A stretch of DNA of 64,000 nucleotides from Daucus carota subsp. sativus (taxonomy: Eukaryota; Streptophyta; Magnoliopsida; Apiales; Apiaceae), in assembly GCF_001625215.2 (NCBI RefSeq), contig NC_030389.2, positions 43,761,454-43,825,453 on the forward strand, given 5' to 3'. Position numbers and translations under genes: made by a program. Of the stretch, positions 6,180 to 60,997 are shown piece by piece. The notes below the pieces were generated by a model, which ran no database searches, was not told the DNA's origin, and was given only the letters and a program-made list of their open reading frames with translations. Each line of letters starts with the position of its first letter. Positions within the stretch are counted from its first letter, which is position 1.

Positions 6180-7164
6180 TATAACTCATTTTTATAAAAT
6201 TCGTATACGAAAGAAGCTTTCTTTGAGCCCTAGAAGTGTTGATTGCATTTCAAGTGAAATCGACCTGCCCCATTTCGGTGAGTACCCTTTATTCTTTGCT
6301 TGCTAAATTGCCCAAATTTCAATTTTTCTATGTAGAATTTGGCTTTGCGTTGGTAATATATATGCTCTGTATGTCTGTTGTTTCCAATTGAATGTGATGA
6401 AATTGCATGTCTGGTGATGCATTACTAGCTTTAATTGTACTATTTATTAGCATTTCAAATGAAATTGATCTGACCCATTTGCGTGATTGTTTCACAAATA
6501 GTTTCCTTCTCTAAGAGTTGAGATAGGCTTGTCTGTCGTTTGTTGATGGTGCTACTTGTAGACATTTCAGTACCCATTTAAGTTCAGGCATTTGCTTTTT
6601 CTCCATGTTGGATATTCGAGATTGGGTTCCCGCGTTGGTAATATTATCTAATATCTGTGAATTACTGATGGTTCCGGAAAAATCATAAACTTTGAATCTG
6701 TGTTAAGGGGGTGTGCATGAGAAAGGGATGGTTTTCTTGGGTTTCGGTTTAGAGATATTGTCATCCTCCCACGAGGAGATTGTGGCAGGTGAGGTGAACA
6801 AGTCATGTATGTGGGTAAAGCTAACTTGAGCATTATATTTGCACAAGCAAATTGCTTATCAAGAGTAGGCAAAATGATTCCAATAGGTATACACATAAAG
6901 CAAATGTGAATAAGGCACAAATTCTATTCTTATATCTTATGTTTCCAGTGTTGAGTATTATTTTATCCACACAGTACTCATAAATTCTCGTGCTAAGAAA
7001 TAAAGAAGAGTCAGTCTTATGATTAGTGTTTTAAGAAAATTTAGCTTTTATTCTTCATAAGCAAAAATTGAACTACTACTAACAGTAATTCAGTTTCTAT
7101 TGGACTACAGAATAAGTTTTCGAATTCAGAAATTCCTGGAGCCAAGGTGAATTGTGCTTTGCAG

Positions 7165-7173
7165 ATGCGATAA
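7165..7173 (+). promoter_or_regulatory. Two-codon upstream ORF (ATG CGA TAA), copy A
   Basis: The second 5' UTR exon appears to begin at 7165, right after the acceptor TTTGCAG, with ATGCGATAA, six bases upstream of the proposed main ATG at 7179. The same nine bases are kept in copy B (11579-11587). Such a minimal uORF could depress or tune translation; the effect is inference. Confidence 0.55.
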
Positions 7174-7178
7174 AAAAG

Positions 7179-8766
7179 ATGGTTAGTTATCACTACACAC
7201 AAACTCTTTTACCATATTTTCAGGAAGACTTTGCTTTAATTAGTAAATCTAATAGAATCTTGTAGACCTTTGCTTTCTGTTGTGTATTTTCACACTATAA
7301 TCTTTAAACTTTTTACTGAGTGTGTTTGTTTTTGGTTTCTTATCATGTAGAAATAATTTTTTATTCAGTCAACTTGTTAAAATAACTGCTTGACCTGCAC
7401 TTTTTGACTGTTCACTTGTTGCTACTCCAAATAACTGTCTAAAAACTTTGATGGCTCTCCTGATTCAAAATGGCAAGACCAACATCACTGTTATCATTTA
7501 TTTGAATGCTTTGACTATACATGTGGTTATACTCTTATAAACTGGCTTTCTTTCAGTATTTCAGAAAATTGCTGGATGCTCTGCATATTTGTATTTGAAC
7601 TTGCCCCCCTGGTCTTAAAAGCTATGTCTAAACAGTTAATTTGGTTCTTAGTCCTGTATTTGTTGTATCATATAGCTGAATCCTTCCCTTTTATACATTT
7701 TTTGTAGGAAAAAGAAGCAAAGAAGGAAGCTTTTAGGAAGTATTTAGAGTCTAGGGGAGTTGCTGATTCTTTGACAAAAGGTTTCATCTTCCTGACTGTT
7801 CCCTTTTGCTTGTAACTTAGTTATAATGAGTAGGTCGCTTCTGTCTAGGTAATCTTTTTGTTGTGCCTTATATCTCATGGCATTTTCATTGATTCTATTA
7901 CTATATTTTATTTATTATTTTTATATGGTTTTTATTTCTTTTTTTACTTGTAGTTCTTGTGGCACTTTATGAGCCGAATGTAGAGCCTTCCTCGGCCATT
8001 GAGTAAGCTTGCATTTTTTTCTCAGCATAACTTCTTCATTTCCTTTTCGTTTTGTACATTAACCTGGAAAACAAGGCCAATTTCTGCAGCTCATTAAAAT
8101 TGGCTATGTTCAATAGTCAGACCTATAAATATGAATTTGGGATTCTTGCAATTTTGATAATTTGTCTATTAGATTTACATTTTTGGTGTTCAAATGTGTT
8201 GTGATATAATGACCTTCATCCTGGTTTTCCAGGATCATCCAGCAAAGAATGGGTGGTCTAAGTTTATCCGACTATGACAAGCTACTAGCTGATATGTCTG
8301 TTTTGAGAATTAAGCATAAAGAGCTTTTGGCAGCACATGAAGTGAAGCGCAGGGAGGTAGGCCTTGAGTTCATCATTGTTTCATGAATAAGTTTGGATTC
8401 ATTGTCTCCCATGCTTGTTTCTCCATCCCTTTGTTTCTAATACAGCGAATTGTTTTAGAATAATAAGCTCTGTTACAAAGTATAATGACATGCCTAGTAC
8501 CAAGATGTCCAGGGGTCTTATAATGTAAACTTGTAAAAAGCATGTGAGCCGCAACCAAAAGGTTGTCTTGTGGCCTTGTATCAATAATAATTGTTTTCTG
8601 TAGGGTATTTGATGGTGTGAATATGCTATTTAATTTAGCCACTCTCTGCCGAGTGACGTGATCACTGACGTTCTTTCTCTATGGATTGCAGATTGAGGAA
8701 TTATTAAGCTCTATCATCATGTCATCAGCCAAGGAGACAAATGATATGGAAGGTTCTGGAGCATAA
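7179..8766 (+). CDS. MYCBP/AMY-1-like small coiled-coil protein, copy A
   Basis: Plant homologue of the c-Myc-binding protein MYCBP, a small helical protein; its plant role is little known. Exons: 7179-7181 (ATG alone), 7708-7780, 7954-8002, 8233-8356, 8692-8766, giving 107 residues. Signature blocks: MEKEAKKEAFRKYLES, DSLTKVLVALYE, SDYDKLLADMS and the C-terminal heptad-like helix IKHKELLAAHE. Compared with copy B, GGPS has become GGLS and E-Q-N is E-P-N. One extra base in the last exon (GAAGG against GAGG) shifts the frame, so the tail is MEGSGA instead of MEVLDHNVL. The start is chosen because the ATG abuts a GTTAGT donor and joins in frame to GAAAAAGAA. Confidence 0.85.
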
Positions 8767-9232
8767 TGTTCTTTGAGAGGATTGCTCAAATATTTGATAG
8801 AATTGTCTTTGGTCATCTGTCTTTTTACACCTCTTGGTGTTACACTTATCTGCCCAGACTTTATGTTTTGGTTGGCAGTCATCATATTTCTAATCTGTAA
8901 TATTCTCGTATAAATCACTCAGTACCTCTGTAAAATTGTTTCAATTGGGTGTGCTATGCAACTTGGAATTAAACTCATCTGTCAAAGGAAAATGCAGTTT
9001 CAATCTGTGAAGATAATTCATAGGTAAGATTTAACATCCCAGGACGGAATCTGCACTTCTATCAGATATAACTTTGATCATGAATTATAGAAATTATAAT
9101 TGAAAAAAATTATAAAATTTATGCTGTTAGAAAGTATGTGTATTCTACTTGAAGGTATTTAATTGGCAAGACTTCAACAAATTATAGTCAATGTTTAATC
9201 AATTTAAGTGAAAGTCAAACAAGTCAAAAATT

Positions 9233-10384: not shown

Positions 10385-11335
10385 CCAAACAATATCTAAA
10401 ACAAGATTAAAAAGGATATTAAAAAAAGGTGATATATGTTAAAGCCTCAAGGTGAACTTGAAATCTTTGGTTGTATTGGTTCATTAGGTCAGATCACGAT
10501 AATGAGGGATTGGTTGAATATACAAAAAAATGTGTTTAAAAAGATGTATGTTAAAAGCAAAAAAGGATCCTGCATTAGTATGTAATATGAGTTAGACCAG
10601 GTCAAACATGAAATGGGTTAAAAACGATGGATTTTTATAAACTTGTTTAAATAGTACTCCCTCCGTCCCCCTGAGTTGTATACATTGGGGGACGGGTACG
10701 CGGCACGGACTTTAATGCTCCTGTTTTACATAGTTCTATAACTTATTTTTAAGAATTTTCTTTTCTGAATAAAAGTTTGAATGTTATATTTTTATTCAGA
10801 AAAAGAAAATTTTAAAAATAAGTTATAGAACTATATTTTACAAGAGCATTGAAGTGCGTGTTGAGCAGTGAAAAAGAAACGTATAGAATTAAATGGGACA
10901 GAGGGAGTACTGAACAAAAATAATAATTGGAGAGCTAAAGAAAAAGATGGCTTTGTATAGAAGAGGATTCTAAATTGTTCATAACTTTTTTCGGTAGTTT
11001 GTTCCAGAAAAGGAAAAAGAACTTTTTGGTATGTATTAACATATATTTCAGTATATGATAAAATATTTATTTTTTAATGATATACAGTTTGCATGGTGTG
11101 TGCGATGCTTGTAAAGATCAACTGAGAAACAATTAGTGAAATAATTAAACTCGAATAAATTATTGTCTTTTAAAACAAATAAATAAATCCAACTACTACT
11201 AGAACTAACTCCAGTTTCCAATAAAAATACTAATGAAACTAATAGTTGAGCGGGGCTATAGGCTATAGCCTCCAATAGTCCCCAAGTGCATTGTCTAATA
11301 TATGATTTTCACATGCAACCCCCAGTTTTTTCAAA
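10385..11335. other. Extra sequence in the 5' UTR intron of copy B
   Basis: Copy A reads AAGGCACAAATTC directly into TATTCTTATATC. Copy B has about 950 bp between the equivalent points. The extra block contains the Stowaway-like element at 10657-10907 and otherwise AT-rich sequence without a recognisable reading frame. I could not define clean ends or a target duplication for the whole block. Confidence 0.7.
10657..10907. mobile_element. Stowaway-like MITE, family 1
   Basis: 251 bp with ends CTCCCTCCGTCCCCC and GGGACAGAGGGAG, flanked by TA on both sides (10655-10656, 10908-10909). The two arms fold over their full length. The same family occurs at 35922-36171 and 36365-36613, and in degraded form at 17009-17211; they share TTGTATACATTGGGG and GCACGGACTTTAATGCTCC. 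Confidence 0.85.
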
Positions 11336-11578
11336 TTTCATTCTTATATCTTATGTTTCCAGTGTTGAGTATTATTTTATCCACACAGTACTCATAAATT
11401 CTCATGCTAAGAAATAAAGAAGAGTCAGTCTTATGATTAGTGTTTTAAGAAAATTTAGCTTTTATTCTTCATAAGCAAAAATTGAACTACTACTAACAGT
11501 AATTCAGTTTCTATCAGACTACAGAACAAGTATTTGAATTCAGAAATTCCTGGAGCAAAGGTGAATTGTGCTTTGCAG

Positions 11579-11587
11579 ATGCGATAA
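11579..11587 (+). promoter_or_regulatory. Two-codon upstream ORF (ATG CGA TAA), copy B
   Basis: Identical to the uORF of copy A, immediately after a TTTGCAG acceptor and six bases before the main ATG at 11593. Confidence 0.55.
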
Positions 11588-11592
11588 AAAAG

Positions 11593-13200
11593 ATGGTTAG
11601 TTATCACTACACACAAACTCTTCTTCTACCATATTGTCAGGAAGACTTTGCTTTAATTAGTAAATCTAATAGAATCTTGTAGACCTTTGCTTTCTGTTTT
11701 GTATTTTCACACTATAATCTTTAAACTTTTTACTGAGTGTTGTTTGTTTTTGGTTTCTTATCATGTAGAAATAATTTTTTATTCAGTCAACTTGTTAAAA
11801 TAACTGCTTGACCTGCACTTTTTGACTGTTCACTTGTTGCTACTCCAAATAACTGTCTAAAAACTTTGATGGCTCTCATGATTCAAAATGGCAAGACCAA
11901 CAGCACTGCTTTGACTATACATATGGTTATACTTTTATAAACTGGCTTTCTTTCAGTATATCAGAAAGTTACTAGAAGCTCTCCATATTTGTACTTGAAC
12001 TTGCCCCCCTTGGTCTTAAAAGCTATGTCTGAATCGTTAATTTGGTTCTTAGTCCTGTATTTGTTGTATCCTATATAGCTGAATCCTTCCCTTTTATACA
12101 TTCTTTGTAGGAAAAAGAAGCAAAGAAGGAAGCTTTTAGGAAGTATTTAGAGTCTAGTGGAGTTGTTGATTCTTTGACAAAAGGTTTCATCTTCTTAACT
12201 GTTCCCTTTTACTTGTAACTTAGTTATAATGTAGTAGGTCCCTCCTGTCTAGGTAATCTTTTTGTTGTGCCTTATATCTCATGGCATTTTCATTGATTCT
12301 ATTACTATATTTTATTTATTATTTTTATATAGTTTTTATTTCTTTTTTTACTTGTAGTACTTGTGGCACTTTATGAGCAGAATGTAAAGCCTTCCTCGGC
12401 CATTGAGTAAGCTTGCATTTTTTTCTCAGCATAACTTCTTCATTTCATTTTCGTTTTGTACATTAACCTGGAAAACAAGGCCATTTTCTGCAGCTCATCA
12501 AAATTGGCTATGTTCAATAGTCAGACATAAATATGAATTTGGGATTCTTGCAATTTTGATAATTTGTCTATTAGATTTACATTTTTTGTGTTGTGTGGTT
12601 GTGACAGTAAACAAATGTCTTGTGATATAATGACCTTCATCCTGGTTTTCCAGGTTCATCCAGCAAAAAATGGGTGGTCCAAGTTTATCCGACTATGAGA
12701 AGCTACAAGCTGAAATGTCTGATTTGAAAATTAAGCATAAAGAGCTTTTGGCATCACATGAAGAGAAGTGCAGGGAGGTAGGCCTTGAGTTCATCATTGT
12801 TTCAGGAATAAGTTTGGATTCATTGTCTTCCATGCTTGTTTATCCATCCCTTTGTTTCTAATACAGCTAATTGTTTTAGAATAATAAGCTCTGTTACAAA
12901 GTATAATGACATGCCTAGTACCAAGATGTCCAGAGGTCTTATGATGTAAACTTGTAAAAATCATGTGAGCTGCAACCAAAAGGTTGTCTTGTGGCCTTGT
13001 ATCAACAATAATCGTTTTCTGTAGTGTATTTGATGGTGTGAATAAGCTGTTTATTTAGCCACTCTCTGCCGAGTGACGTGATTCATCTGACATTCTTTCT
13101 CTATGGATTGCAGCTTGAGGAATTAAAAAGCTCTTTAACCATGTCATCATCAGCCAAGGAGACAGATGATATGGAGGTTCTGGATCATAACGTGCTTTGA
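11593..13200 (+). CDS. MYCBP/AMY-1-like small coiled-coil protein, copy B
   Basis: Exons 11593-11595 (ATG alone), 12111-12183, 12358-12406, 12654-12777 and 13114-13200 encode 111 residues. The protein reads MEKEAKKEAFRKYLES, DSLTKVLVALYEQNVKPSS, then GGPSLSDYEKLQAEMSDL, IKHKELLASHEEKCRE and LEELKSSL. This is closer to the family pattern as I know it than copy A, so copy B probably keeps the ancestral sequence. Splice positions and phases are identical in both copies. The function in plants is not established; human MYCBP binds the Myc N-terminus and AKAP proteins. Confidence 0.88.
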
Positions 13201-14059
13201 AAGGATTGCTCAAATATTTGATAGAATTGTCTTTGGTCATCTGTCTTTTTACACCTCTTGGCCGTACAATTATCTGCACGGACTTTAAGTTTTGGTCGGC
13301 AGCCATCATATTTCTAATCTGTAATATTCTCGTATAAATCACTCAGTACCTCTGTAAAATTGTTTCAATTGGATGTGCTATGTGTATTGTTCTTTATATG
13401 TCTTGCAAATACACAATGTTTGTGCTATGTAACTTGGAATTAAACTCATCTCTGTCAAAGTAAAATGCAGTTTCAATCTGTGAAGATAATTCTCAGGTAC
13501 AAGATTCAACATCCCATGGTGGAATCTGCACTTCTATCATATATAAGTCCAAAATTATACTCCTGTACAATTTGTTTTTGGTTGTTTTGATTTTTTATGA
13601 TGAAATTAACCTAACTTTGATCATAATTTATAAAATTGAAAAAAATTATAAAATTTATATTGTTAGAAAATATGCGTATTCTACTTGAAGGTATTTAATT
13701 GGCAGAACACCAGCAAATTATGGTCAACGTCTAACCAATTTGATCGGGAAAGTCAAACAAGTCAAAAATTAATCAATTTGATCGGAAAAGTTAAACAAGT
13801 CAAAAATGAAGGGGTAGAGCGAGTAAAAGATAGTAACAAGATTCATATAGGATGGACTAGCTCATTGCAGAATCAAATGCAAATGCCACTGAGTTCCACA
13901 TCAATGTTGTTAAATAGCATCACACATAGTACGTGTAGAGAATTGTGTGAACAGAAATCAGAACCATGGAGCTAGAAGTTTTCGTTCGTTAACTAACATT
14001 TTCCTAAATCTTCACATTTTAAAGAAACTGAAGGCACAAGATTGCTGTTCCAGCTGCAA

Positions 14060-23692: not shown

Positions 23693-26350
23693 ATGGCCAA
23701 ACCACTAAGCCTAATCAAACTTCTTCTTGTGCATTGCTTCTTCATGTTCATGTTCATGTTCATGCAATGCTTATCTTGTCCTGCTCATCAAAAACAATCC
23801 CTTCTCCACTTGAAATCCTCCTTACTCGAATTATACGAAACTACAAACTCAACCATATTTGGCTTGGAGTCATGGAACTCTAGTTCTGATTGTTGTGCAT
23901 GGAACAGAGTTGTTTGTAGTTTGCATTCGCGTGACATCACAGCTTTACACCTTAACATACTTCTTCCTCTCGACGACTATAATTATGATGTTCCTTTCGT
24001 TGATGTAACAATCTTAGACCCCATTTATAGCATTAGATCTTTAATGCTACTTGACATCTCGGAAAATTATATGGTGGGGGAAATTTCAGACACAGGTTTG
24101 GTGAATCTCACCAGACTAGTTCACCTTAGCATGAGCTCTAATGACTTTGAAGGCTCGATTCCAGCACAACTTTTCCACTTGAGGTCTTTGCAGTTTCTTG
24201 ACATCTCTGGGAATTTGTTAGAGGGGGGAATTTCGGGCAAAGGGTTGGCTAATCTCACCAAAATAATTCACCTTGACATCAGTCAAAATCGATTTTATGG
24301 CTCAATCCCATCACAACTTTTCGACTTGAGGTATCTGCAGTTTCTTGGTTTAAGTGCTAATTCTTTAACGGGGGGTTTAAGCAGTGAAGTTGGCAAGCTT
24401 GGAAATCTGAGGACATTAAAGTTGGGAAATAATTTTCTTGATGGGAATATTCCTATGCAGATTGGAAATCTGACAGAGTTGCAGCAATTTGTTGTCAATG
24501 ACAACAAATTTTGGGGTCAGATTCCAGATACAATTGGAAAGTTGAAGGGGTTGGAAATTTTGGATTTGGGTAATAATCATTTCCATAAGCAAATTCCGAG
24601 TGCAATTGGAAACCTGCTCAACATTTCTACTTTGTCATTGCAGAATAACAGTTTCAATGGTGTAATCCCACCATCAATACGAAACTTGAGCAAATTAGAA
24701 ACACTTCACCTGGAAGATAATTTGCTTTCTGGGGAAATCCCATTGTGGTTATTTGACAGAGAAAGTCTTAAAATTTTGTATCTTGGAGGAAACAGATTGA
24801 TTTGGGATAGCAATGTCAAATTAGTTCCCAAGTGTGTGCTCTCTAAACTCTCTCTCAGATCGTGTCAAGTTTACGGAGACATTCCAAAATGGATTTTCAC
24901 TCAAAAGAATCTTGATGTTCTTGAACTGAGTGACAATCACATGACAGGAGAATTCCCACTATGGCTTGCTGAGATGAAGATTGAAATTTTACTACTGTCA
25001 CGGAACAAGCTTACTGGTTCAATACCGTCTAGCCTTTTCCGATCTACAAGGTTATCACTTTTGGCACTTTCAGAAAACAATTTTTCAGGAGAGTTGCCAA
25101 AAAACGTAGGTGATGCTACTAACATCAAGGCACTTATGCTTTCTGCGAACAATTTTTCAGGGGCCATTCCAAAATCCATTGCAGATATACGTCCACTATT
25201 GCTACTGGACTTGTCAAGAAACAGATTCTCTGGCAACACACTCCCAGCCCTGAATTCTGCACCCTTGCTTCATTATGTTGATCTCTCCTCAAATGAACTA
25301 TCAGGTGACGTTCCTGTGTCATTTAGTCATGGAATCAGTATTCTTGCCCTCGGAGAAAATAAGTTCTCTGGCAAGTTGCCAAAGAAGCTGGCAGACATGA
25401 AACAGCTTGTCCATCTTGATCTCCATGACAACAACATTACCGGTGTTTTCCCAGAATTTCTCTCTTGTATACCCACTCTTCAAGTCCTCATTCTACGTAA
25501 CAACTCTCTCCACGGTTCATTGCCACCTAACTTATTCGTGAACCAAAGCAAAATCCTAATTCTTGATCTTTCAAGTAACAATCTTGTTGGAAATATCCCG
25601 TCAGGGTTGGGAAATCTAATGGCGACGTTTACCACACTGTACGGTTATCCATATGGGACAGGTGATACCGGACTATGGGTGAATTGGGTTGCCGGTACTG
25701 TTACAATGGTTAGTGACATGTTGAGCTATACAATTGAAATCAATGACTTAATGGTGACATGGAAAAAGTCTGTACGAGGTATTTCAAGTCATAACCGCGG
25801 AATCTACTCATTGTTGGACTTGTCAAATAATAAGCTGTCAGGTGATATTCCAGCTTCATTAGGAAATCTCAGGAATCTGAAACAACTCAACATCTCCAAC
25901 AACAGACTCTCCGGACACATACCAGGAAGTCTCGGGGACTTGGAGAGTATAGAGAGCATGGACTTATCAACGAACAAACTCTCTGGTACAATTCCACAAT
26001 CATTTGGAAAGCTAGAGCAACTCTCTGTACTAGATGTCAGTAACAACAAACTAAGTGGTAAAATTCCGCGAGGTAGACAGATGGACAGAATAAACAATCC
26101 AAGTTATTTCGCTAATAATAGTGGACTATGTGGGATGCAAATCACGGTGAAATGTTCAGGAGACGAGCCAAAACCAGGTGATAATGATGACGACGACGAC
26201 GTTGATGAAAAAGAGCCCTGGTTCTTGTGGACAGGGCTGTGGATCGGATTCCCACTCGGCTTGATTTCATCAGTATTAACAGCATTTCTTGGTGGGTATT
26301 TTGTTATACCAACAACAAAGTACCACTCTATTCATTTCAGGCACAGATGA
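23693..26350 (+). CDS. LRR receptor-like protein (RLP46-like), no kinase
   Basis: Single-exon 885-residue cell-surface receptor-like protein. A signal peptide (about 1-28) contains a FMFMFMFM run from a TTCATG microsatellite. The LRRNT region has the paired-Cys motif SDCCAWNRVVC at 65-75. About 25 extracellular plant-type LRRs (LxxLxLxxNxxSGxIP) follow, broken by a non-LRR island (about 650-705, with YGYPYGTGDTGLW and VTWKKSVRG). The C-terminal cap is NNSGLCGMQI, followed by an acidic strip (DNDDDDDVDEKE), a membrane span (about 844-870) and a 15-residue tail. RLPs signal through partners such as SOBIR1/BAK1 in immunity or development. Layout and wording resemble Arabidopsis RLP46 as I remember it. 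Ligand unknown. Confidence 0.95.
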   Translation: MAKPLSLIKLLLVHCFFMFMFMFMQCLSCPAHQKQSLLHLKSSLLELYETTNSTIFGLESWNSSSDCCAWNRVVCSLHSRDITALHLNILLPLDDYNYDVPFVDVTILDPIYSIRSLMLLDISENYMVGEISDTGLVNLTRLVHLSMSSNDFEGSIPAQLFHLRSLQFLDISGNLLEGGISGKGLANLTKIIHLDISQNRFYGSIPSQLFDLRYLQFLGLSANSLTGGLSSEVGKLGNLRTLKLGNNFLDGNIPMQIGNLTELQQFVVNDNKFWGQIPDTIGKLKGLEILDLGNNHFHKQIPSAIGNLLNISTLSLQNNSFNGVIPPSIRNLSKLETLHLEDNLLSGEIPLWLFDRESLKILYLGGNRLIWDSNVKLVPKCVLSKLSLRSCQVYGDIPKWIFTQKNLDVLELSDNHMTGEFPLWLAEMKIEILLLSRNKLTGSIPSSLFRSTRLSLLALSENNFSGELPKNVGDATNIKALMLSANNFSGAIPKSIADIRPLLLLDLSRNRFSGNTLPALNSAPLLHYVDLSSNELSGDVPVSFSHGISILALGENKFSGKLPKKLADMKQLVHLDLHDNNITGVFPEFLSCIPTLQVLILRNNSLHGSLPPNLFVNQSKILILDLSSNNLVGNIPSGLGNLMATFTTLYGYPYGTGDTGLWVNWVAGTVTMVSDMLSYTIEINDLMVTWKKSVRGISSHNRGIYSLLDLSNNKLSGDIPASLGNLRNLKQLNISNNRLSGHIPGSLGDLESIESMDLSTNKLSGTIPQSFGKLEQLSVLDVSNNKLSGKIPRGRQMDRINNPSYFANNSGLCGMQITVKCSGDEPKPGDNDDDDDVDEKEPWFLWTGLWIGFPLGLISSVLTAFLGGYFVIPTTKYHSIHFRHR

Positions 26351-44994: not shown

Positions 44995-47900
44995 TCACCG
45001 AGCAGATCTCCCGTTCTCATTTACAGTTTGCAGCCAAGCTTGTCCAGCTCTAGCCATCTTCTTATTCTCAAAGGCCATAAGAGACTGAGCATGCTTTAGT
45101 CCATTGAGATGACCTTCTATGACAAGAACACTTGAGCCTGGAGATTTACATAAATCACATGACAGTGGGTTGCTAAAAGCCCTTCCCATCTTCTTGAAAT
45201 CAATCAATTTTTCATGGTGTCTTCGACTGTTGCAATGCTGCCTGAGATGAAACAGTGTAGCAAAGGCCAACGTGCAGGCATGGCAAACAAGTACAGAGGG
45301 ATGGTTTTTGAACACTTGGCAACTTGAAGAAGAAGCCTGTTGTTCAGGAAAGCCTTGGAAAGTACTGGTCGGTTCTTTTCTCTTCAACCCCAGTTGACTT
45401 TGAGGAGGACCCTACAATGTTAAATGGGGGTATGAAACAGAATATTAACAAACACAGTTGAAGAATATAATTTTATAGGAGAATTACAAAAAGGTAAAAA
45501 CTGAAACTTTACAAGATGTCCTGATGTAAACCAAATAAAGCCGCATAAGTGAGTATGTTACTTAACAGAAGCAAAGAATCTTAATTGCAAATATATGTGT
45601 TTATCGACATGCCTATCATATAAGAGGTAGTTCATCTACACCCAGGTACTAAGAATGTAATCAATTGCATAAACGGTAAAACATTGTTGATAGAGGAATT
45701 TGGTAATCAACAAAGATGAGGTTCATGGCCGGAATCAAGATCCGTGACGGTGGTTTTGGTCGCCGGAGAGTGGTGGTTGTTTGTTTTAGGGGGTGGCTGA
45801 GATTAGGGTTTTGAGTTGGTCTCACGTGCTCTCAACTCGTGATCCCCCAATGTGCCTACGTACCCCTATTTATAGGGGATCAAGCCATACGTAGTTCTAT
45901 TGGACCAAGAGTCCTAGTTTGATCAGGACTAGGCCTCTTGGCGATAAGGTCGGAGATAGGCCGAAGGCCCATCTTGGAGAATCCTACTCCTGTTAGAATT
46001 AGTCTTGAGTATGACTACCCCAGACTCCTAATCCAAATAGATCACGGATTCAACGATATCTCCACTACGAGAGATAGCATCTACCACGACTCTTATGGAG
46101 AAGTTATCTGGGAGAGCCATGGCTAACCCCTCGAGGTGCAGGGACATGTCCTCACCTCTCGGTGAGGTCTTCATCTTCAAACAAGGTAGACAAGGAGCCG
46201 AATTACACGATCGTCTCAATCCCCCGATGAGGGCTAACTCACCAGAATACAGGATCCAGACATATGATCGGCCTTCGTGTTACCCCGGAGGGCCTTCAAG
46301 AGCCATGATCACCTCAAGCCCCCACACGAGGGTTAACTCGGCAGATAGCAGGATTGAGGATTGTAGATCATGCCCGGATGAGCCCGGGAACTATCAGATG
46401 AGCTTGATAACTACCAAATGAGCTTGGTAACTACCAAATGAGCTTGGTAACTAGTTTTCATATCCCCCGAAAGGGTCGTCACGGAGACTCACTCATCCTC
46501 TTTCTTTCATCATGTATTTCATAACTATGCCTCTTCTGAGTCAAAGGACGCGCCCTGATAGGGAGGACGTGTCCTTCCCAATTCCCGTCTTCATCCCTGT
46601 TTACTGGACAAGAGACCGCACCTCCCGGGCCATGTCTGGGGAGGGCGCGTCCTCCCCTCCACATGATATACAAAAACGGCTACAACACCTCGGAAGAGTC
46701 GTCGTATCCCCCGGAGGGGTCGTCATATCCCCCCGGAGGGGTAGGTCTTCCTATCCCCGGAGGGACGGTCTTCGTCTCCCTCAGAAGGGTTGTCTCAGCG
46801 AATGTACACTCTCCCATAAGAAGAGCCTTCTTACAACACATCAGACAGGTCCTTCTTTAACATGAGGTCGCGCCCCCGGGGAGGCGAGGACACCCCGTCA
46901 AAGGCACGCCCTTGGTCTTCATCTCATTGTCAACTTCTTACAAGGGACGCGCCCCTCGGTCACCTCCGAAGAGGGCGTGCCCTCCTCCACATATTACAGG
47001 ACGTGGGTGGACGGAGGTCGGTCGCGTCTCTCCATCAACACTCTCAAGTAAGGCGTCCCTCCTTGTGACTCGGAGGACGCGTCCTTTTCAAGCAACACCA
47101 AGGGTCGGTCGCGTCCTCACTTTATAAGCAGGAGGACGCGTCCTTCCTTTATATAGGACTCTTAGCCCAATTCATGTCTTACTTAGTTAAACTAAGTACA
47201 TACTTGGCCCAACAAGGACCTAGCCAAATTTGGCTATAACAAGTACTCCCCAAATTTTCTTGATATTGGAGATATCAGGGAAATTTTTACTCCATACCAC
47301 ACATCCTCTTCCGAGAGGGCGTCCGCCCATAGAGGCGTGACGTAAGCCACTTCTATTCCTCGACATTCCAAGATGCAGGCTGTGCACAAGCCTTGCATGT
47401 ATATAATGTCGGTGTCTTTGATCATTTAGCAAAGTTGCTAAGCATGAGGCTGTCGCGTCTTCTTGATGTGTTCATAAATAATAAGCAATCTTTATGTAGA
47501 CAAAAGAAAACAGGGGGCGCGGCCTATCTGTTGTTGACAGTGGCGCAGCTTCGCTTATTCCTTCCAAAGGACACATTCAACCATAACATTCGCGCCAATG
47601 AACTTCAACAAAAGAAGGGCGCGCCTTCGCTGTGCGAAGGTTTGTGGCTTTTTTTTTTTTTTTTTTTTTTTTTAGCCTTAGTGTATCCATGGTACCTGGG
47701 AATAGTAAATATAAGGCGCGACTTACAGAGTGGCGCTGCCTTGTTATAACATGACCCCTTTTAATTCTTTTTGTTAAAGAATTGCCTAAGCAGAGGGCGC
47801 GGCTGATGGCGCTGCCTTGCAATATTTCTTTTCTTTCAAGGACTGTATAAGCAGAGGGCGCAGCCTTACTTGTAATGTGGGCTCTTTTGATCTTTTCCAA

Positions 47901-50900
47901 GGATTAAGTAGAGGGCGCGGCCTTTGGCGCAACCTTACTTTTTCACGCGTGAATCACTTGCTTAAGAAAATCAAGAGGACCACTCCCCAGTCCATACATC
48001 TTCCCATATGGGGCATCACGAATCTTATCGTGGTTTACATAACTCCGGTGCATCGCACAGGTCCCAGAGCTCATAGCTCAATGGGGAATTAATAGTATAA
48101 AATGTTATCCAGAGCATATCATGGATATGTAAGATCCAGAGCGTATCATGGATGCGCAAGTATAATGTCCAGAGCGTATCATGGATGCGCAAATATAGTA
48201 TCCGGAGCGTATCATGGATATGTAAATAATCATAGCATCCAGAGTAGATCGTGGATGACATCCAGAGCGTATCATGGATGGTTAAAATTCATAGTACCCA
48301 GAGCTGGTCATGGATAATTTGGTAACCTTTGAAAGGCCTTAAGTGTACCTTGATCAAAGACCTTGCAGGTATCATGCTACGTTCCTGTAGAACGGAGGGC
48401 GCGCCCTCATCAAGATGGACAGCTCCTTTAGCATGTTGGACTTGACCTGCACTTTATCATGTATATGACTTAATACTGATGGTCAGTGTTACCTCATGAC
48501 GTGCCCTGTTAGGGGAAGGCGCGTCCTCCCAAATTATCAACCCTGGAAACATGACTTTGGAACTCGGGGTGCGTCCAACTAGGAGGAGGCGCGTCTTTGA
48601 AGCATCTCCCTTCTCAACCTTATTATCCTGGGGGCGCGCCCTCATGCGCTTCCTCAAGTGATGAGTACTTCCGAGAGGGCGCGCCCTAGGGAGGGACGTG
48701 ACCTCTTCAAGACTAGTGAGCTCCTTCCTGAGTATGTTTGTCTTCACAAAATATCATATGAAGCAATTAATGCATCAGACATACCAGAGGGCGCGCCCTG
48801 TCAGAGGGAGGCGTGCAATTCGTTCTTTGATAGAATACTGGTTGGATATGGCGTACCCCTTTAGGAGGGCGCGCCTTGTTGGAGGAAAGTGCGACTAGTC
48901 CTCACGGAGAAGAGGTGTATTCCTCATAAAGGTAACACCATATTACCTGTGAATTTATACATGTAGTAGTCTTAGGGAACCAAATATTGAGGGAGTTTAG
49001 TATTTACCTGAGGGCGCGCCCGGTCAGGGGAAGGCGCGCACCCTTACGACTTTTCGAGCTAGGTTCCATCTGAATAGCTCGCCCCCCGTAACTTTCCCTA
49101 GAGGCGCGCCCTGGCAAGGGAAGGCGCGACTTCTTCGAAAATGTTAAAGGGTGCATCCCTCATGGTGGTGGTCGAACACCACGTTACCTGTAGTTTTCAA
49201 CGTGCCATACTTCTAGAGAATGCAGTAACGAGGAGGTTTAGAGTAGAGTTTACCTGGAGGCGCGCCCTGTTAGGGGGAGGCGCGCTCTTTGAAACTTTTC
49301 AAGCTTCGCTCCATTTGAATAACTCTCCGCTCGTAACTTTCCCTTTCATATCATTATCTGCGGTCAGGCCTTCAACACGTGCCTCTCGCGAACCTCAAAT
49401 TACTTGCTCTGGGGAGGGCGCGCCCCTTCAGAAAACCGTTGAGGCTTCCAGGGAGGCGATCTCCTTCTCGTAAAGACTCAAACCACAACAGACTTGTTAG
49501 CAATAACATGCGAAAGCATTGTGAGAATCTTACCCGGAGGTGCGCCTTCTTCGGAGATGTCAGGGAATTCATTCCTCACGGTGGTAGTCGAGCACCACAT
49601 CACTTGGAGGTGTACCCTGTCAGGGGGAGGTGTACTCTTTCCGGGGGAGGTGTACCCTGTCCGGGGGAGGTGTACTCTGTCCGGGGGAGGTGTACACTGT
49701 CTGGGGGAGGTGTACTCTCTTCGTAGGTGTTAGGTCTCCGAAAATCGCATCCTTCGCTGACTCCCCGGTCCAGAATACCTTGTTCGCATATTAGGTTACC
49801 TCCTAGAATTTCGTTGATGATCGTCCTCCTTCAAACTCCCGATGGAGATATCGTCCTTTTCTGGAGAAGTAGATGAAGGTCTCCTCTTCTCTTGTGTTCT
49901 AGCCATCGCCCTCCCGGAAAATGCTCCGCCTCTACGTGCGAATCTCCGTCATGTGACATCTCTTCCTCCTAAGATGAAGATCTTGAATAGCCCCTCCTTC
50001 TAGCGCCAATTTGTTGATAGAGGAATTTGGTAATCAACAAAGATGAGGTTCATGGCCGGAATCAAGATCCGTGACGGTGGTTTTGGTCGCCGGAGAGTGG
50101 TGGTTGTTTGTTTTAGGGGGTGGCTGAGATTAGGGTTTTGAGTTGGTCTCACGTGCTCTCAACTCGTGATCCCCCAATGTGCCTACGTACCCCTATTTAT
50201 AGGGGATCAAGCCATACGTAGTTCTATTGGACCAAGAGTCCTAGTTTGATCAGGACTAGGCCTCTTGGCGATAAGGTCGGAGATAGGCCGAAGGCCCATC
50301 TTGGAGAATCCTACTCCTGTTAGAATTAGTCTTGAGTATGACTACCCCAGACTTCTAATCCAAATAGATCACGGATTCAACGATATCTCCACTACGAGAG
50401 ATAGCATCTACCACGACTCTTATGGAGAAGTTATCTGGGAGAGCCATGGCTAACCCCTCGAGGTGCAGGGACATGTCCTCACCTCTCGGTGAGGTCTTCA
50501 TCTTCAAACAAGGTAGACAAGGAGCCGAATTACACGATCGTCTCAATCCCCCGATGAGGGCTAACTCACCAGAATACAGGATCCAGACATATGATCGGCC
50601 TTCGTGTTACCCCGGAGGGCCTTCAAGAGCCATGATCACCTCAAGCCCCCACACGAGGGTTAACTCGGCAGATAGCAGGATTGAGGATTGTAGATCATGC
50701 CCGGATGAGCCCGGGAACTATCAGATGAGCTTGATAACTACCAAATGAGCTTGGTAACTACCAAATGAGCTTGGTAACTAGTTTTCATATCCCCCGAAAG
50801 GGTCGTCACGGAGACTCACTCATCCTCTTTCTTTCATCATGTATTTCATAACTATGCCTCTTCTGAGTCAAAGGACGCGCCCTGATAGGGAGGACGTGTC

Positions 50901-51778
50901 CTTCCCAATTCCCGTCTTCATCCCTGTTTACTGGACAAGAGACCGCACCTCCCGGGCCATGTCTGGGGAGGGCGCGTCCTCCCCTCCACATGATATACAA
51001 AAACGGCTACAACACCTCGGAAGAGTCGTCGTATCCCCCGGAGGGGTCGTCATATCCCCCCGGAGGGGTAGGTCTTCCTATCCCCGGAGGGACGGTCTTC
51101 GTCTCCCTCAGAAGGGTTGTCTCAGCGAATGTACACTCTCCCATAAGAAGAGCCTTCTTACAACACATCAGACAGGTCCTTCTTTAACATGAGGTCGCGC
51201 CCCCGGGGAGGCGAGGACACCCCGTCAAAGGCACGCCCTTGGTCTTCATCTCATTGTCAACTTCTTACAAGGGACGCGCCCCTCGGTCACCTCCGAAGAG
51301 GGCGTGCCCTCCTCCACATATTACAGGACGTGGGTGGACGGAGGTCGGTCGCGTCTCTCCATCAACACTCTCAAGTAAGGCGTCCCTCCTTGTGACTCGG
51401 AGGACGCGTCCTTTTCAAGCAACACCAAGGGTCGGTCGCGTCCTCACTTTATAAGCAGGAGGACGCGTCCTTCCTTTATATAGGACTCTTAGCCCAATTC
51501 ATGTCTTACTTAGTTAAACTAAGTACATACTTGGCCCAACAAGGACCTAGCCAAATTTGGCTATAACAAACATCATTCCGAATTATACACCTCCACAACA
51601 AATTTTTAAGCCAACTGCATCAGCTTAATTAACAATTTACCTGTGAAGGAACTAGAGGTTTTAAGGGGTTCAGGTGTTGAAAGTTCAGCAGCTCCATCTT
51701 AGTTCTGTACTCGAACTCCCTTTGAATAGCGAGCTCGGCCGACATTACATTGTTCAAGGTAATCATCTCATCCTCCAT
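44995..51778 (-). CDS. Two-finger U1/matrin-type C2H2 zinc-finger protein
   Basis: Minus-strand exons 51641-51778 and 44995-45411 join in phase 0 to 184 residues. The N-terminus MEDEMITLNNVMSAELAIQR continues as a helical charged segment (EFEYRTKMELLNF). Two fingers follow: VCHACTLAF...HLRQHCNSRRH and SCDLCKSPG...EGHLNGLKH. Both are C-x2-C-x12-H-x5-H, the spacing of U1-like/matrin-type fingers that often bind double-stranded RNA. The intron is about 6.2 kb, nearly all of it an LTR element in the same orientation as the gene. A non-coding first exon probably lies near 52400-52460 (donor AAAAGCAG|GTGACTC). A donor at 44935-44936, 3' of the stop, suggests a 3' UTR intron. Function not known. Confidence 0.75.
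45685..47241 (-). repeat. LTR (3' LTR in element orientation)
   Basis: 1557 bp, nearly identical to 50012-51568. It contains several CGCG words (GGACGCGCCC, AGGACGCGTCC, GGTCGCGTCC) and, on the minus strand, a CTATAAATAG TATA-like box at 45866-45875, placed as a U3/R boundary would require. Confidence 0.95.
47242..47256 (-). other. Polypurine tract
   Basis: On the minus strand AAATTTGGGGAGTAC directly precedes the LTR start TGTTATAGCC, the position where plus-strand DNA synthesis is primed. Confidence 0.75.
48107..48316. repeat. Seven-copy ATCCAGAGCGTATCATGGAT array
   Basis: Imperfect tandem copies, core ATCCAGAGCGTATCATGGAT, with variable spacers of a few to about 17 bases. All seven lie inside the LTR element. 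Confidence 0.9.
48395..49550. repeat. Cluster of GGGCGCGCCC-type palindromes
   Basis: GGCGCGCC or close variants recur about every 80-120 bases (for example near 48399, 48632, 48678, 48789, 48865, 49013, 49103, 49260 and 49417). Several are paired with a second AGGCGCGC 10-20 bases on, spaced by a CCTGTTAGGGGGA-like link. CGCG is also the core of the CAMTA transcription-factor site. Function inferred only. Confidence 0.85.
49606..49723. repeat. Six-copy 20-bp tandem array
   Basis: Unit GGAGGTGTACTCTGTCCGGG with one to three changes per copy. Upstream paired GGCGCGCCCTGTTAGGGGGA units look like a related, CpG-rich version (GGCGCGCC in place of GGTGTACC), so the array may derive from them. Confidence 0.9.
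49990..50011 (-). other. Primer-binding site
   Basis: On the minus strand, right after the LTR end CA, the sequence reads AATTGGCGCTAGAAGGAGGG. TTGGCGC-type primer-binding sites are usual in plant Ty3-gypsy elements; I did not match it to a specific tRNA. Confidence 0.7.
50012..51568 (-). repeat. LTR (5' LTR in element orientation)
   Basis: 1557 bp, the partner of 45685-47241. The corresponding TATA-like CTATAAATAG is at 50193-50202 on the minus strand. It ends at 51568, 72 bp from exon 2 of the host gene. Confidence 0.95.
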
Positions 51779-54812: not shown

Positions 54813-57003
54813 ATGGAAAAGGCTTTGGTGAAAGTGGGAAGCATTAAAGCTGGGAGCTTTTGGCTTTCAAAGAAAGCTAAAGAAGAGTACTCTAACATTT
54901 CTCAGGATCTCACTGTATGTGCATTTTTACAGTCTTTCTTTTGTGTATGTGTTTTTTTTTGTGATTGTGCTTGTGTATTGTATGAAATGTGGTTGTGTTG
55001 ATGATTACCCACTTGGAGATTTGAGGTTAAATCATATTAATTGTGAGATCTGTTAGGCTCTGGCCTCATATTTGGATGAACATCAAGTGTGAGAGAGGGA
55101 GGGGGAGAGAGAGAGAGAGAGATGGCTGTAGCATTTTGATATCTACTTCAGTGATGTGTGAATTGGAGATGGGAAAGTGATTTTTTTGTTATTGATATAG
55201 TAGATTGTACTAATTGATTTAGTAATTTTACTAGTATTTTTGTATGTGTTTCTTGATTTACAGGGAATTAAAGAACATTGATAGTTTTCCTTGTAGAAAC
55301 TGTAATAGAGTTTGGATTCGAAATCAGGAGTAGTTGTTATTGGGGGGGGGGGGGGGGGTTTAATTTGTTAATTTGTATTAAGTTTGTAACTGCAGAAAAG
55401 TAGAAAATGTATGATGAAATGGGTGATTTAGTTGAATTTGGATCCACTTCGTCTTTCTTATTTTGTTTACAATATCAGGAATTACCACCCTTTACATCTT
55501 TCTTAATCTAAGATAAGTAATTGATTTACCGATGATGGTGTGATCATTAATTAAGATATTTACTTAATCGCTTATTTGCTTGACAATTTGGTTCGTTACT
55601 TAAGTGTGAGTTTCGACATATTTTACTTTGAGGTATCCAAGGGAAAGTTTGTTGAATTTGTGCTTGAAGTTTAGATGTTACCCTACAAAAAAAATCTCTT
55701 TTTTAACTTAATCATAGAAATTAGAATCACCAAATCTAACATTTTTTTACTTCTATCAATAGTCAAACATATTTGAATATCACCTTAGGAAACGTTGAGA
55801 AGTATATAAACAATACAGGGTAGTAGAAGGATAACCGTGTATATCATCTCAATGTAGTTTTACGTAGCGGCAGCAATCTTTGGCAACAAAAGTTCAGGCT
55901 TTATGCTAATATGTGGGTTTTCAACAGTATTTTGCAACCATGATTTCGAAAAGAAAATTTTCACTGTCATTTTAAACAGATGTCTCAATGTCTTAGACTG
56001 TCACAACCAGGCTTGAGGTTGTCTTGAGTGGCCTCGTGGTAATGTAAATACATCTTCAAAATTTTCATCATTTTCTCTGTTCCGTTCGCACAGATTTGGA
56101 CTGGAGATTAGTGTCTCAGTCCCTCAAATTCAGAAGTGATTCCTTATCACACATCCTCTTTATCTTCTTCACAAGCCTCATCGCTGAAATTTTGGAGTCT
56201 CTCGTTGTTCATCCACTCCTACATTCTTATTTCCTACCTTTAATATTGTTCCCAATTTTTATTCCATTGCAACTACACTGCAGTCGTTCCAACCAACAGA
56301 GCGTTAGTATCACATTTCAGTACATGGTCAACTACATCAGTCCTTGAAAGAAAGATTTTGAATCTTCAATAATTAAGCTACCCCGCTCTAATTTGCTAAA
56401 TGGTTGCTGCTATTAATGATGAAGATAATTTTGTTTAACTAATACAAGTACATACTGCTTGATTCTTTAACCGTGCAGACTTTGTCAAATACTGTTGAGG
56501 AGAAGGCAAAATGGATCTTTGATAAGCTTAAAGGTAACAAGCTTATATGTTAGTTTATTTTGGGTGATTTCGCACATGCAATCCCGGATCTAACGACCTT
56601 TTCTCTTCCTTGACCTGCAGGAAAGCCATTGAAAACCTTACCAGATCTCCTCCGTGAATACAATCTGCCAATAGGCCTCTTCCCTCAGAACATAACATGC
56701 TATGAATTTGACGATACAAAGGCCAGGCTGATAGTACACTTGCCCTCTGCTTGTGAAATTACCTTCAAGGACTCTTCTGTGATCAGGTATGCCACTCGGG
56801 TTAAATGCAACCTGATAAGAGGTAAGCTGACAGGCATAGATGGGATGAAAACAAAGGTCGTCTTGGTGTGGACAAAGGTCACAAGTGTCTCTGTCGAAGG
56901 CTACAAGTCAGATAAGGTCTGGTTTACAGCTGGTTTGGCAAAATCAAGGCCTAGGGAAGCTTATGACATTCCGCGTGATGCTATTAGAATCAAAGAATTT
57001 TAA
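54813..57003 (+). CDS. DUF538 family protein
   Basis: Exons 54813-54914, 56479-56533 and 56621-57003 encode 179 residues, the normal size for plant DUF538 proteins. It starts MEKALVKVGSIKAGSFWLSK and has the family blocks LPDLLREYNLPIGLFPQNIT, YEFDDTKARLIVHLPSACEI, VIRYATRVKCNLIRGKL and GIDGMKTKVVLVWTKV. There is no signal peptide in this member, so it is probably cytosolic. DUF538 proteins have a beta-rich BPI-like fold; their role is unsettled (stress, chlorophyll and lipopolysaccharide binding have been proposed). The first intron is 1.56 kb. Confidence 0.93.
55342..55358 (+). repeat. G17 homopolymer in DUF538 intron 1
   Basis: Seventeen consecutive G. Such runs are error-prone in sequencing and can form G-quadruplex stacks. 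Confidence 0.9.
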
Positions 57004-58045: not shown

Positions 58046-59638
58046 ATGGCGATTTCACCAGATTTTAGGGTTTCTGCAGCACTACGCCCTTTCTCTTGCA
58101 CCCCATTTCGTAACACTCTTCACCGCTCAAAGGTATATACACACACTCATATGTATCTACATGCTATATTTCAATTTTGTGTATTCTTAGATTTGTTGAT
58201 TTTGTCTTAATTCACTGATTTTTAGCTGATGCTTGGGTGTTTTTTTAGCTCAAATGTTGGTCTTTATGCTTTTAATTAGACGGATAGATGTTAGGATTGT
58301 AGAGAATTGAGTTCTGTGGATCAAGATTTATTTTTTCTTCGTGTTTTCGTGATTATATTGATGTAGAAATTAGGAGTATAGGAGATAAGAGTAGGTTGAA
58401 ATTGAGGGTATAGAGTTTCTTTTTATTGTTTTTGTGAATTACAATTAGGTTCTGTAAGTTCGTGTAAGTGATAATTTTGTTGATGTGTTACGGAGTAGTT
58501 TTGATTGAGATGATGATTTGGACGTCTGGTAGTCTGGTTGAGGTCTCGTGTTTATGTTTTATACGTTGTGGCAGCAACATTACGGTTATGATTACTGAAT
58601 GATGGTTGTGCTCTTTTTGGTTTAGTTGGTAGACTTTCATAGGCTGCAAATGGGAAGCTGAATGTTGAACTGCCCGAATGATACCTATCACCAATTTACC
58701 AATACGTAAACTACTTTTTATGATGAAACTGAGATATATAATTTGAGATTCATGGAAAGTTGTAATGCAAAAGATTGTTGTTCTGTGATGGATATATCGA
58801 CAAATTTTTTGTTATAAGAACACCCATAAAGCGAGTTAATCATTACGACATAGTTACACAAGCCCGCGTCTGCTTCCCCATATGTCCACACAGCATTTCT
58901 GTACTAGCCGGCCTTTGGACAACATTCAGCACAGAAGTTTTTTTGATTAGTAATATTTGGCATGTATGTTTGCAGTTTGCACTGCTTCGGATCTTTATGA
59001 TTTTTTATGTTGTATCACAGGTTGATTTTACTGGCTTTCTAGATGGAGGGATGGTTGTTTCTGGGGGCACAGTCAGGTGGCCTCAATCTGTGGTTGGCAG
59101 CCACAGCATCCGTTGCAATTTTAAACGACCTATTGCTGATGATGGTGAATATAAGCTGTCCTCGGGTTCCATAAGCCAAGAAGCTGAGAACTTCCTCATT
59201 AACGCCATAAACATGACTTTTGTTGAGCGTCTAAACCTAGCTTGGAAAATAATCTTCCCTTCACCGGCATCAAAAAGGAAGTCTAATGCGAACATTGCTA
59301 AACAGCGTCTGCAAATGATCCTCTTCTCTGACCGTTGTGCAGTTAGTAATGAGGCTAAGCAAAAGATAGTGAGCAACGTAGTAAGAGCTCTATCAGATTT
59401 TGTGGAGATAGAATCACAAGATAAAGTTCAGCTTAATGTTTCTACTGATGCAGCTGTGGGAACCATTTATTCAGTGACAGTGCCTGTTCGACGAGTAAAA
59501 CCACAATATCAAGAAGATGACGAGACTGGCACAATCACAAATGTCGAGTACAAAGACTACGGTGAAAGTTCTGGTTCTGTTGACGTCAAGTTTGATTTTT
59601 ATGTTCCAGATGAAAAACATAATGAGCTTAGATTCTGA
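58046..59638 (+). CDS. MINE1: Plastid division topological specificity factor MinE
   Basis: Exons 58046-58132 and 59021-59638 give 234 residues. With MinD and ARC3, plant MinE places the FtsZ ring at mid-chloroplast. The N-terminal 60-70 residues (MAISPDFRVSAALRPFSCTP...) are Ser/Arg-rich as expected of a transit peptide. The MinE part has RLQMILFSDR (residues about 125-134, MinD-contact region), SNVVRALSDFVEIE, VQLNVSTD and TIYSVTVPVRRVKP. The tail GTITNVEYKDY...VDVKFDFYVPD is the plant-specific extension. Phase and length agree with Arabidopsis MinE1. An ATG at 58775 is in frame with exon 2, but the intervening sequence is intronic. Confidence 0.95.
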
Positions 59639-60249: not shown

Positions 60250-60942
60250 CTAGCCCAAACGAGTTGCACTTAGCACTCCTGGCGGCGGTGTTCCTGGACT
60301 AGTCTCTGGATTGGGTCCGGATGGAACGAGTCTCTTCACTTCACCAGAACTTGGAGGCGGTGTTCCTGGACTAGTCTCTGGATTGGGTCCGGATGGGACG
60401 AGTCTCTTCACTCCACCAACACCTGGAGGCGGTGTTCCTGGACTAGTCTCTGGATTGGGTCCGGATGGGACGAGTCTCTTCACTTCACTAGCACCTGGAG
60501 GCGGTGTTCCTGGACTAGTCTCTGGATTAGGTCCGGATGGGACGAGTCTTTTCGCTTCAGCACCTGGTGGCGGTGTTCCTGGACTAGTCTCTGGATTGGG
60601 TCCGGATGGGACGAGTCTCTTCGCTTCAGCACCTGGAGGCGGTGTTCCTGGACTAGTCTCTGGATTGGGTCCGGATGGGACGAGTCTCTTCGTTTCAGCG
60701 CCTGGAGGCGGTGTTCCTGGACTCGTTTCTGGATTGGGTCCGGATGGCACAAGTCTCTTTGCTGCTCCTGTATCGTGAACAGGCAACTTAAACCCTAACT
60801 TATGAAAAAGAGCCAAGCTGCTTCTTCTATTATGTAACATAAGCCGTGCTTCTGAATTCGCAGAAAAGGTTAAGAAAACGGCTAGGATAATCTGCACAAT
60901 GATTATCAAGCGTTTAGCAGCAACTGAATTATTAGTAGCCAT
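60250..60942 (-). CDS. Secreted precursor with seven identical CLE-like peptide units
   Basis: 230 residues, no intron. The start MATNNSVAAKRLIIIVQ is chosen because a secretion signal follows at once (hydrophobic IIIVQIILAVFLTF, likely cut near NSEA). A propeptide of about 35 residues precedes seven exact copies of RLVPSGPNPETSPGTPPP, each after a lysine, separated by 4-5 variable residues (GAETK, GAEAK, GASEVK, GVGGVK, SSGEVK). RLVPSGPNP equals the core of CLE peptides (RLVPSGPNPLHN class), but the usual HN ending is replaced by ETSPGTPPP, whose SPG recalls CEP peptides. Prolines could be hydroxylated and arabinosylated. Likely role: an apoplastic signal released by cleavage at K-R. Neither receptor nor function is known, and a structural Pro-rich protein is an alternative. 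Confidence 0.8.
   Translation of the reverse strand: MATNNSVAAKRLIIIVQIILAVFLTFSANSEARLMLHNRRSSLALFHKLGFKLPVHDTGAAKRLVPSGPNPETSPGTPPPGAETKRLVPSGPNPETSPGTPPPGAEAKRLVPSGPNPETSPGTPPPGAEAKRLVPSGPNPETSPGTPPPGASEVKRLVPSGPNPETSPGTPPPGVGGVKRLVPSGPNPETSPGTPPPSSGEVKRLVPSGPNPETSPGTPPPGVLSATRLG
60274..60776 (-). repeat. Seven-unit coding tandem repeat (66-72 bp)
   Basis: The repeat region of the CLE-like precursor. Differences between units within the 18-codon core are synonymous as far as I can see, while the spacers differ in sequence and length. Confidence 0.93.
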
Positions 60943-60988: not shown

Positions 60989-60997
60989 CTATTTATA
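60989..60997 (-). promoter_or_regulatory. TATA box of the CLE-like precursor gene
   Basis: TATAAATAG on the minus strand, 47 bases upstream of the ATG at 60942. It predicts a short leader of 15-25 bases and argues against use of the upstream in-frame ATG at 61035. Confidence 0.7.

Follow-up and report, generated by a model that had tools for sequence, protein, structure and literature searches.

A carrot gene encoding seven copies of a CLE-type unit with a constrained proline-rich tail

The question raised by this carrot locus is what kind of precursor repeats one 18-residue unit, RLVPSGPNPETSPGTPPP, seven times, and where within each unit an active peptide would begin and end. The window referred to below is the whole 64-kb stretch of DNA that was analyzed; the features of the gene and its carrot paralogues are collected in Table 1. 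On the minus strand the frame reads from an ATG at 60942 to a TAG at 60252–60250, and the gene probably consists of a single exon. The frame stays open further upstream, to an ATG at 61035, and the start was taken at 60942 because of the TATAAATA box that precedes it; each of the four carrot paralogues has such a box, at –54 to –74. In the first 32 residues the n-region is basic, the core is hydrophobic (Kyte-Doolittle score of 3.25 across 11 residues) and an S-E-A site is present, features that predict the N-terminal secretion signal expected of a CLE precursor and support the signal proposed in the first-pass annotation. Another carrot record, P0033, shares the start of the window gene but is a shorter model with a different end. 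Against Pfam and NCBIfam the window protein had no match that passed a curated cut-off (best E 4.8 and 0.23, with unrelated names), and a PDB sequence search gave no sensible match (best E 0.26).

Table 1. Features of the window gene (positions in the window) and the carrot paralogue set.
Feature	Location	Strand	Remarks
CLE-type multi-unit precursor CDS	60250..60942	-	single open frame, 230 aa + stop
TATA box TATAAATA	60990..60997	-	55 bases 5' of ATG
Predicted signal peptide, residues 1-32	60847..60942	-	putative cut after S-E-A, from hydropathy and the -3,-1 rule
Variable region, residues 33-62 (30 residues)	60757..60846	-	last residue Lys, adjoining unit 1
Unit 1, RLVPSGPNPETSPGTPPP	60703..60756	-	
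Unit 2, RLVPSGPNPETSPGTPPP	60634..60687	-	
Unit 3, RLVPSGPNPETSPGTPPP	60565..60618	-	
Unit 4, RLVPSGPNPETSPGTPPP	60496..60549	-	
Unit 5, RLVPSGPNPETSPGTPPP	60424..60477	-	
Unit 6, RLVPSGPNPETSPGTPPP	60352..60405	-	
Unit 7, RLVPSGPNPETSPGTPPP	60280..60333	-	followed by GVLSATRLG + stop
Poly-A signal AATAAA	60191..60196	-	56 bases past stop-codon start
Window gene	contig C9		7 units
Paralogue	C9:807 kb		8 units
Paralogue	C4:48.434 Mb		12 units
Paralogue	C4:48.440 Mb (L009 2323-2948)		frameshift in unit 4, more unit sequence in another frame

As the first-pass annotation had described, the seven units are identical at the protein level (7/7) and each is preceded by a Lys that forms a K-R junction with the first Arg (7/7). 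The spacers vary in both residues and length (GAET, GAEA, GAEA, GASEV, GVGGV and SSGEV, each then followed by K), and the array has a Tandem Repeats Finder score of 768. The DNA of the seven copies differs, with 46 synonymous against 0 non-synonymous pairwise differences in the cores; at least eight substitutions were counted there, 8/8 of them synonymous (p ~5e-5 to 8e-5 against a roughly estimated neutral expectation). Since the core differences are all synonymous, selection on the repeated peptide is visible within the window itself. A chance origin as low-complexity Pro repeats was ruled out, as the changes within units are synonymous and the unit is kept in relatives. In a six-frame scan of 61043 twelve-mers the seven units were the best CLE-motif matches in the window (18.2 bits, the next scoring 8.9), and pattern and matrix scans of the 64 kb found no further unit or CLE gene.

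Several other features were observed in the window. Convergent with the peptide gene lies a frame with a MinE domain (58775-59638, plus strand; PF03776, E 1.1e-12), presumably of the chloroplast-division type, and a DUF538 protein is encoded at 56629-57003 on the plus strand (PF04398, E 7.2e-30). The stretch 23693-26350 (plus strand), ~34 kb away from the peptide gene, encodes an 885-residue leucine-rich-repeat protein that, read by eye, has a signal-like start, a C-terminal hydrophobic stretch and no kinase, and that looks like an LRR receptor-like protein. Direct repeats at 45684-47242 and 50011-51569, 1559 bases each, 99.9% identical and with starts 4327 bases apart, are probably the LTRs of a very young retrotransposon whose internal part is short. 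A direct duplication of ~2 kb (6918-8958 and 11332-13382) has 93% identity.

The two halves of the unit gave opposite results when compared with a CLE position matrix built from 101 published motifs (50 from Populus and 51 from tomato). Residues 1-9, which fit R-x-V-P-S/T-G-P-N/D-P and had been assigned to CLE in the first-pass annotation, fall at the 99th percentile of the 101 motifs, a set that itself includes identical heads. Residues 10-12 score –11.8 bits, below the lowest of the 101 (–7.4), and lack the usual L/I-H-N/H or x-S/G-N, which bears out the earlier remark that the second half is unlike CLE; the complete 12-mer falls at the 4th percentile. The precursor also departs from the single C-terminal motif and length of 60-120 aa described for CLE proteins (PMC2254619), having seven units in 230 aa, and multi-CLE exceptions to that description have been published. 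Because the units fail the C-terminal part that defines the CLE motif, they are termed here a CLE variant and not CLE peptides proper. The head is identical to that of CLE9/10-type peptides. A Durio CLE9-like query identified 10 carrot loci, all of which have LHN or LHH immediately before the stop, and three of these 10 single-unit loci contain K-R-L-V-P-S-G-P-N-P; one of them, L011, reads YGVEKRLVPSGPNPLHN-stop, with junction and head as in the window units. The label PF27922.1 is carried by many relatives of the window protein and also by a Durio protein named CLE9-like that has the canonical LHN end.

The search of related sequences suggested in the first-pass annotation was made as three protein searches, with ~7,980 candidates scored in each and E values of up to 1 (one search) or 0.1 (two), and it identified 87 distinct relatives. 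Their named eudicot sources include Heracleum, Cinchona, Sesamum, Solanum, Sarracenia, Euphorbia, Hevea, Manihot, Craigia, Citrus, Mangifera, Acer, Pyrus, Malus, Rubus, Prunus, Acacia, Trifolium, Sesbania, Brassica, Arabidopsis halleri and Macadamia (a chimeric model), and their named monocot sources include Ensete, Vanilla and Eragrostis. Matches with E above about 1e-3, e.g., those of Eragrostis and Vanilla, are the weakest and are uncertain. This distribution over many eudicots and some monocots does not favor the lineage-specific branch that had been suggested. By a simple head score, at least one unit was found in 81 of the 87 relatives, an SP-tailed unit ([SP]P at 12-13) in 69, a canonical-type unit in 16 and both in 10, the rule for mixed precursors being loose enough to count P0014 through its DHN end. 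Among 192 tallied tails, position 13 was Pro in 155, position 12 Ser or Pro in 156, position 16 Pro in 115 and position 14 Gly in 25, frequencies that are biased to SP tails because the queries were the window protein or its kin and were themselves SP-tailed.

Descent from CLE is best supported by the mixed precursors, in which canonical-type and SP-tailed units occur together. In Rubus P0030, PLHN-PGTPPT and PMKS-PGTPPT units share one register (RLVPTGPNPMKSPGTPPT and RRVPTGPDPLHNPGTPPT), and Pyrus P0018 contains RQVPTGPNPLHHF and RLVPSGPNHEESPEELP. The 10 mixed precursors counted by the simple rule among the 87 relatives, together with the Rubus register, point to common ancestry with CLE units, and on this sequence evidence the carrot units are CLE-derived. 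H-start CLE-like units usually occur in single-unit genes; in P0068 and P0087 an SP-tailed or Pro-rich unit was observed beside such a unit (HEVPAGPSPIGN; HDVPAGQNPIHN).

The same relatives bear on the resemblance of the tail to CEP peptides, on which the first-pass annotation had built a hybrid core. A true CLE/CEP fusion would have a tail derived from a CEP peptide, and an N-P before a P-x-x-S-P-G-type stretch does occur in some CEPs. The order and spacing of P-x-x-S-P-G in the carrot unit are those of CEP peptides such as DFRPTTPGHSPGIGH, and multi-domain CEP precursors exist (PMC8920145). CEP positions 7-15, however, are most often [PS]GHSPG[VI]GH, and by this consensus the 15-residue domain ends SPGxGH (PMC4197245), whereas the carrot unit ends SPGTPPP, with no GxGH, and has no F-R-P-T start. 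The Gly after S-P is found in only 25 of the 192 scored units, and Heracleum P0003 and the similar P0004 have SPESP. In Rubus P0030, moreover, PGTPP follows a canonical CLE 12-mer ending in LHN, in the same register, and is a simpler source for the tail. The CLE context thus explains the tail better, and a CEP origin, for which the GxGH end is absent and the relatives disagree, is extremely unlikely.

A genome search placed the window gene in a set of four carrot paralogues. All four resemble one another in leader, TATA box and N-terminal region, the last with gaps in the 12-unit gene, and blastn alignments of the window gene with the other three extend 5' of the ATG by about 700, 770 and 510 bases. 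The frameshifted gene is annotated as DCAR_0418040 (P0002), with an out-of-frame tail at its end. A further record, P0001 (138 aa), has a start like that of the C9:0.8 Mb paralogue, the GVLSATRLG end of the window gene and three units, and is either allelic, recombinant or the product of a collapsed assembly.

When units were picked by K-R alone, with no tail demanded, 31 were recovered, 27 of them in the three intact carrot genes. Residues 12-17 read S-P-G-T-P-P in 27/27 of the latter, pairwise comparison giving 597 synonymous codon differences and no non-synonymous ones, and the sole exception among the 31 was the frameshifted unit 4, in which the tail is lost. Across 30 complete units (the 27 plus three from the frameshifted gene), residues 1, 2, 4, 6-9 and 12-17 are fixed, Val3 is changed once, and residues 5, 10 and 11 are variable, tail invariance being partly built into this set by a pattern that required SPGTPP and so left out the frameshifted unit 4. 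The 17-residue cores of the intact paralogues likewise vary only at positions 3, 5, 10 and 11; residues 10-11 are the L-H site of most CLE peptides. Pairwise pN/pS in the 30 units is 0.14 for the head, 0.53 for positions 10-11 and 0 for the tail (pS 0.31), and 0.26 for the three codons before Arg1, values that are descriptive since the units share ancestry and are not independent. The synonymous changes among units indicate that their identity is not merely the result of recent copying. The N-terminal region outside the units has a pN/pS of 0.32 across the four genes (0.23-0.74 for single pairs), so constraint is not limited to the units; the whole protein is constrained, and the tail most of all.

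Composition suggests another possibility, that the product is an unprocessed proline-rich cell-wall protein. Pro accounts for 50 of the 230 residues of the window precursor, which is probably disordered, and its S-P and P-P-P motifs are of the kind that becomes hydroxylated and glycosylated. Tyr or Cys cross-linking motifs are typical, if not universal, in cell-wall proline-rich proteins, but the 230 residues include no Tyr, Cys or Trp. Every unit is preceded by K-R, the head is common to single-unit CLE genes, and in some relatives canonical-type CLE units lie within the same precursors. A cell-wall protein is quite improbable on these observations.

The best explanation of the locus is likely a secreted CLE-type prepropeptide with seven copies of one ligand. 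That it is a CLE-derived signalling precursor is highly probable, and the chances are about even that the extended tail belongs to the active ligand. What the array and its paralogues display is an architecture and a pattern of constraint, with a second constrained block, S-P-G-T-P-P, past the usual CLE end, L-H-N/H. During maturation the signal peptide would be removed and the K-R junctions cut by subtilase-type proteases; Pro4 and Pro7 may be hydroxylated, and Hyp7 may carry arabinose, in the manner of CLE peptides. One mRNA would then yield several identical ligands, and copy number may thereby set the dose. The mature ligand probably extends to about residue 16-18, since a cut between residue 12 and Pro13 would be difficult and residues 12-17 are the most constrained part in carrot. 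The putative receptor is of the CLV1/BAM class (LRR-RLK XI), with a C-terminal pocket that would not need the usual free His or Asn.

A different reading, which is rather unlikely, would limit the active ligand to residues 1-12, RLVPSGPNPETS, and make the Pro-rich remainder a conserved linker or processing signal between units. Cutting before Pro13 is unfavourable for most proteases, which counts against a 12-mer; in addition, Ser12 lies within the invariant block while residues 10-11 vary, and Ser would sit at the usual C-terminal anchor position. Consistent with a linker, similar Pro-rich stretches follow canonical-type LHN or KHH 12-mers in P0029 and P0030 (Rubus) and in P0023 and P0026, and poly-Pro linkers between CLE domains have been reported for OsCLE502 (PMC4197245). 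CLE peptides would need their C-terminal residue to anchor to the receptor. For TDIF, C-terminal anchoring is the conserved part of receptor binding and an N-terminal site sets specificity (PMC6749341). By this scheme a CLE head with another end would make a different C-terminal contact, act as a 12-mer ending in Ser, or be a competitor. As a competitor, or decoy, the unit would occupy CLV1/BAM receptors through its CLE head with no activation, its C-terminal His/Asn anchor having been replaced. Loss of the anchor would, however, be expected to weaken binding itself, and retention of the tail in 27/27 units of the intact carrot genes suggests a positive role, so a decoy or antagonist is improbable.

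More tentatively, SP-tailed CLE units could be a separate and widespread multi-copy hormone class in flowering plants, in which the CLE head is retained, a second constrained block, S-P-x-x-P, replaces the L-H-N anchor, the receptors or mode of binding dispense with the canonical C-terminal carboxylate pocket, and dose is set by unit number. Although carrot is not alone in having such copies, a question about the C-terminal recognition of CLE peptides becomes testable through the two-block unit and the mixed precursors: precursors with a CLE head and a swapped end, sometimes beside canonical-type units, offer a direct test of the roles of both ends, and intact carrot paralogues with 7, 8 and 12 copies allow the relation of unit number to hormone dose to be asked.

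Among known systems, the CLE9/10-type single-unit genes (carrot L011 and Durio P0077) share the K-R junction and the head RLVPSGPNP with the carrot unit and differ from the window gene in having one C-terminal unit that ends LHN-stop. Hydroxyproline-rich systemin precursors contain several Pro/Ser/Thr-rich peptides of about 18 residues in one secreted precursor, but those peptides are without a CLE head. A wholly new peptide type, as had been proposed, is not in keeping with multi-CLE precursors known at least since 2008 (PMC2254619). Legume examples are MtCLE14, MtCLE22, MtCLE26/27, GmCLE37a/b and LjCLE32/33/46/47, which like the carrot gene have repeated domains, 3 to 9 putative CLE domains each, the Medicago and Lotus repeat motifs being 24-35 residues long (PMC4526924, PMC5570945). 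The four units of MtCLE14 are identical, as are those of carrot, but are followed by Asn and not Pro, and MtCLE26/27 may be the same kind of precursor as the relative P0028. A 2025 wheat paper excluded multi-CLE genes, including OsCLE502/504/506, from its analysis (PMC12677920), and the accessible text of the tomato (PMC4195864) and Populus (PMC4776436) surveys reports no multi-CLE protein. Of eight papers matched on carrot together with CLE peptides, none concerned these genes by title or opening abstract text, and a search of the main text of open-access papers for 17 unit strings found none except that of rice CLE76. Rice CLE76, with four VP[ST]GPDPITSDPPP units in the 2008 table (Table 2 of Oelkers 2008, PMC2254619), resembles the carrot gene in its regularly spaced units, CLE head and non-LHN Pro-rich tail; it differs in that its four units are non-identical, start 25-29 residues apart, come from a monocot and have Leu, not Lys, before the first Arg.
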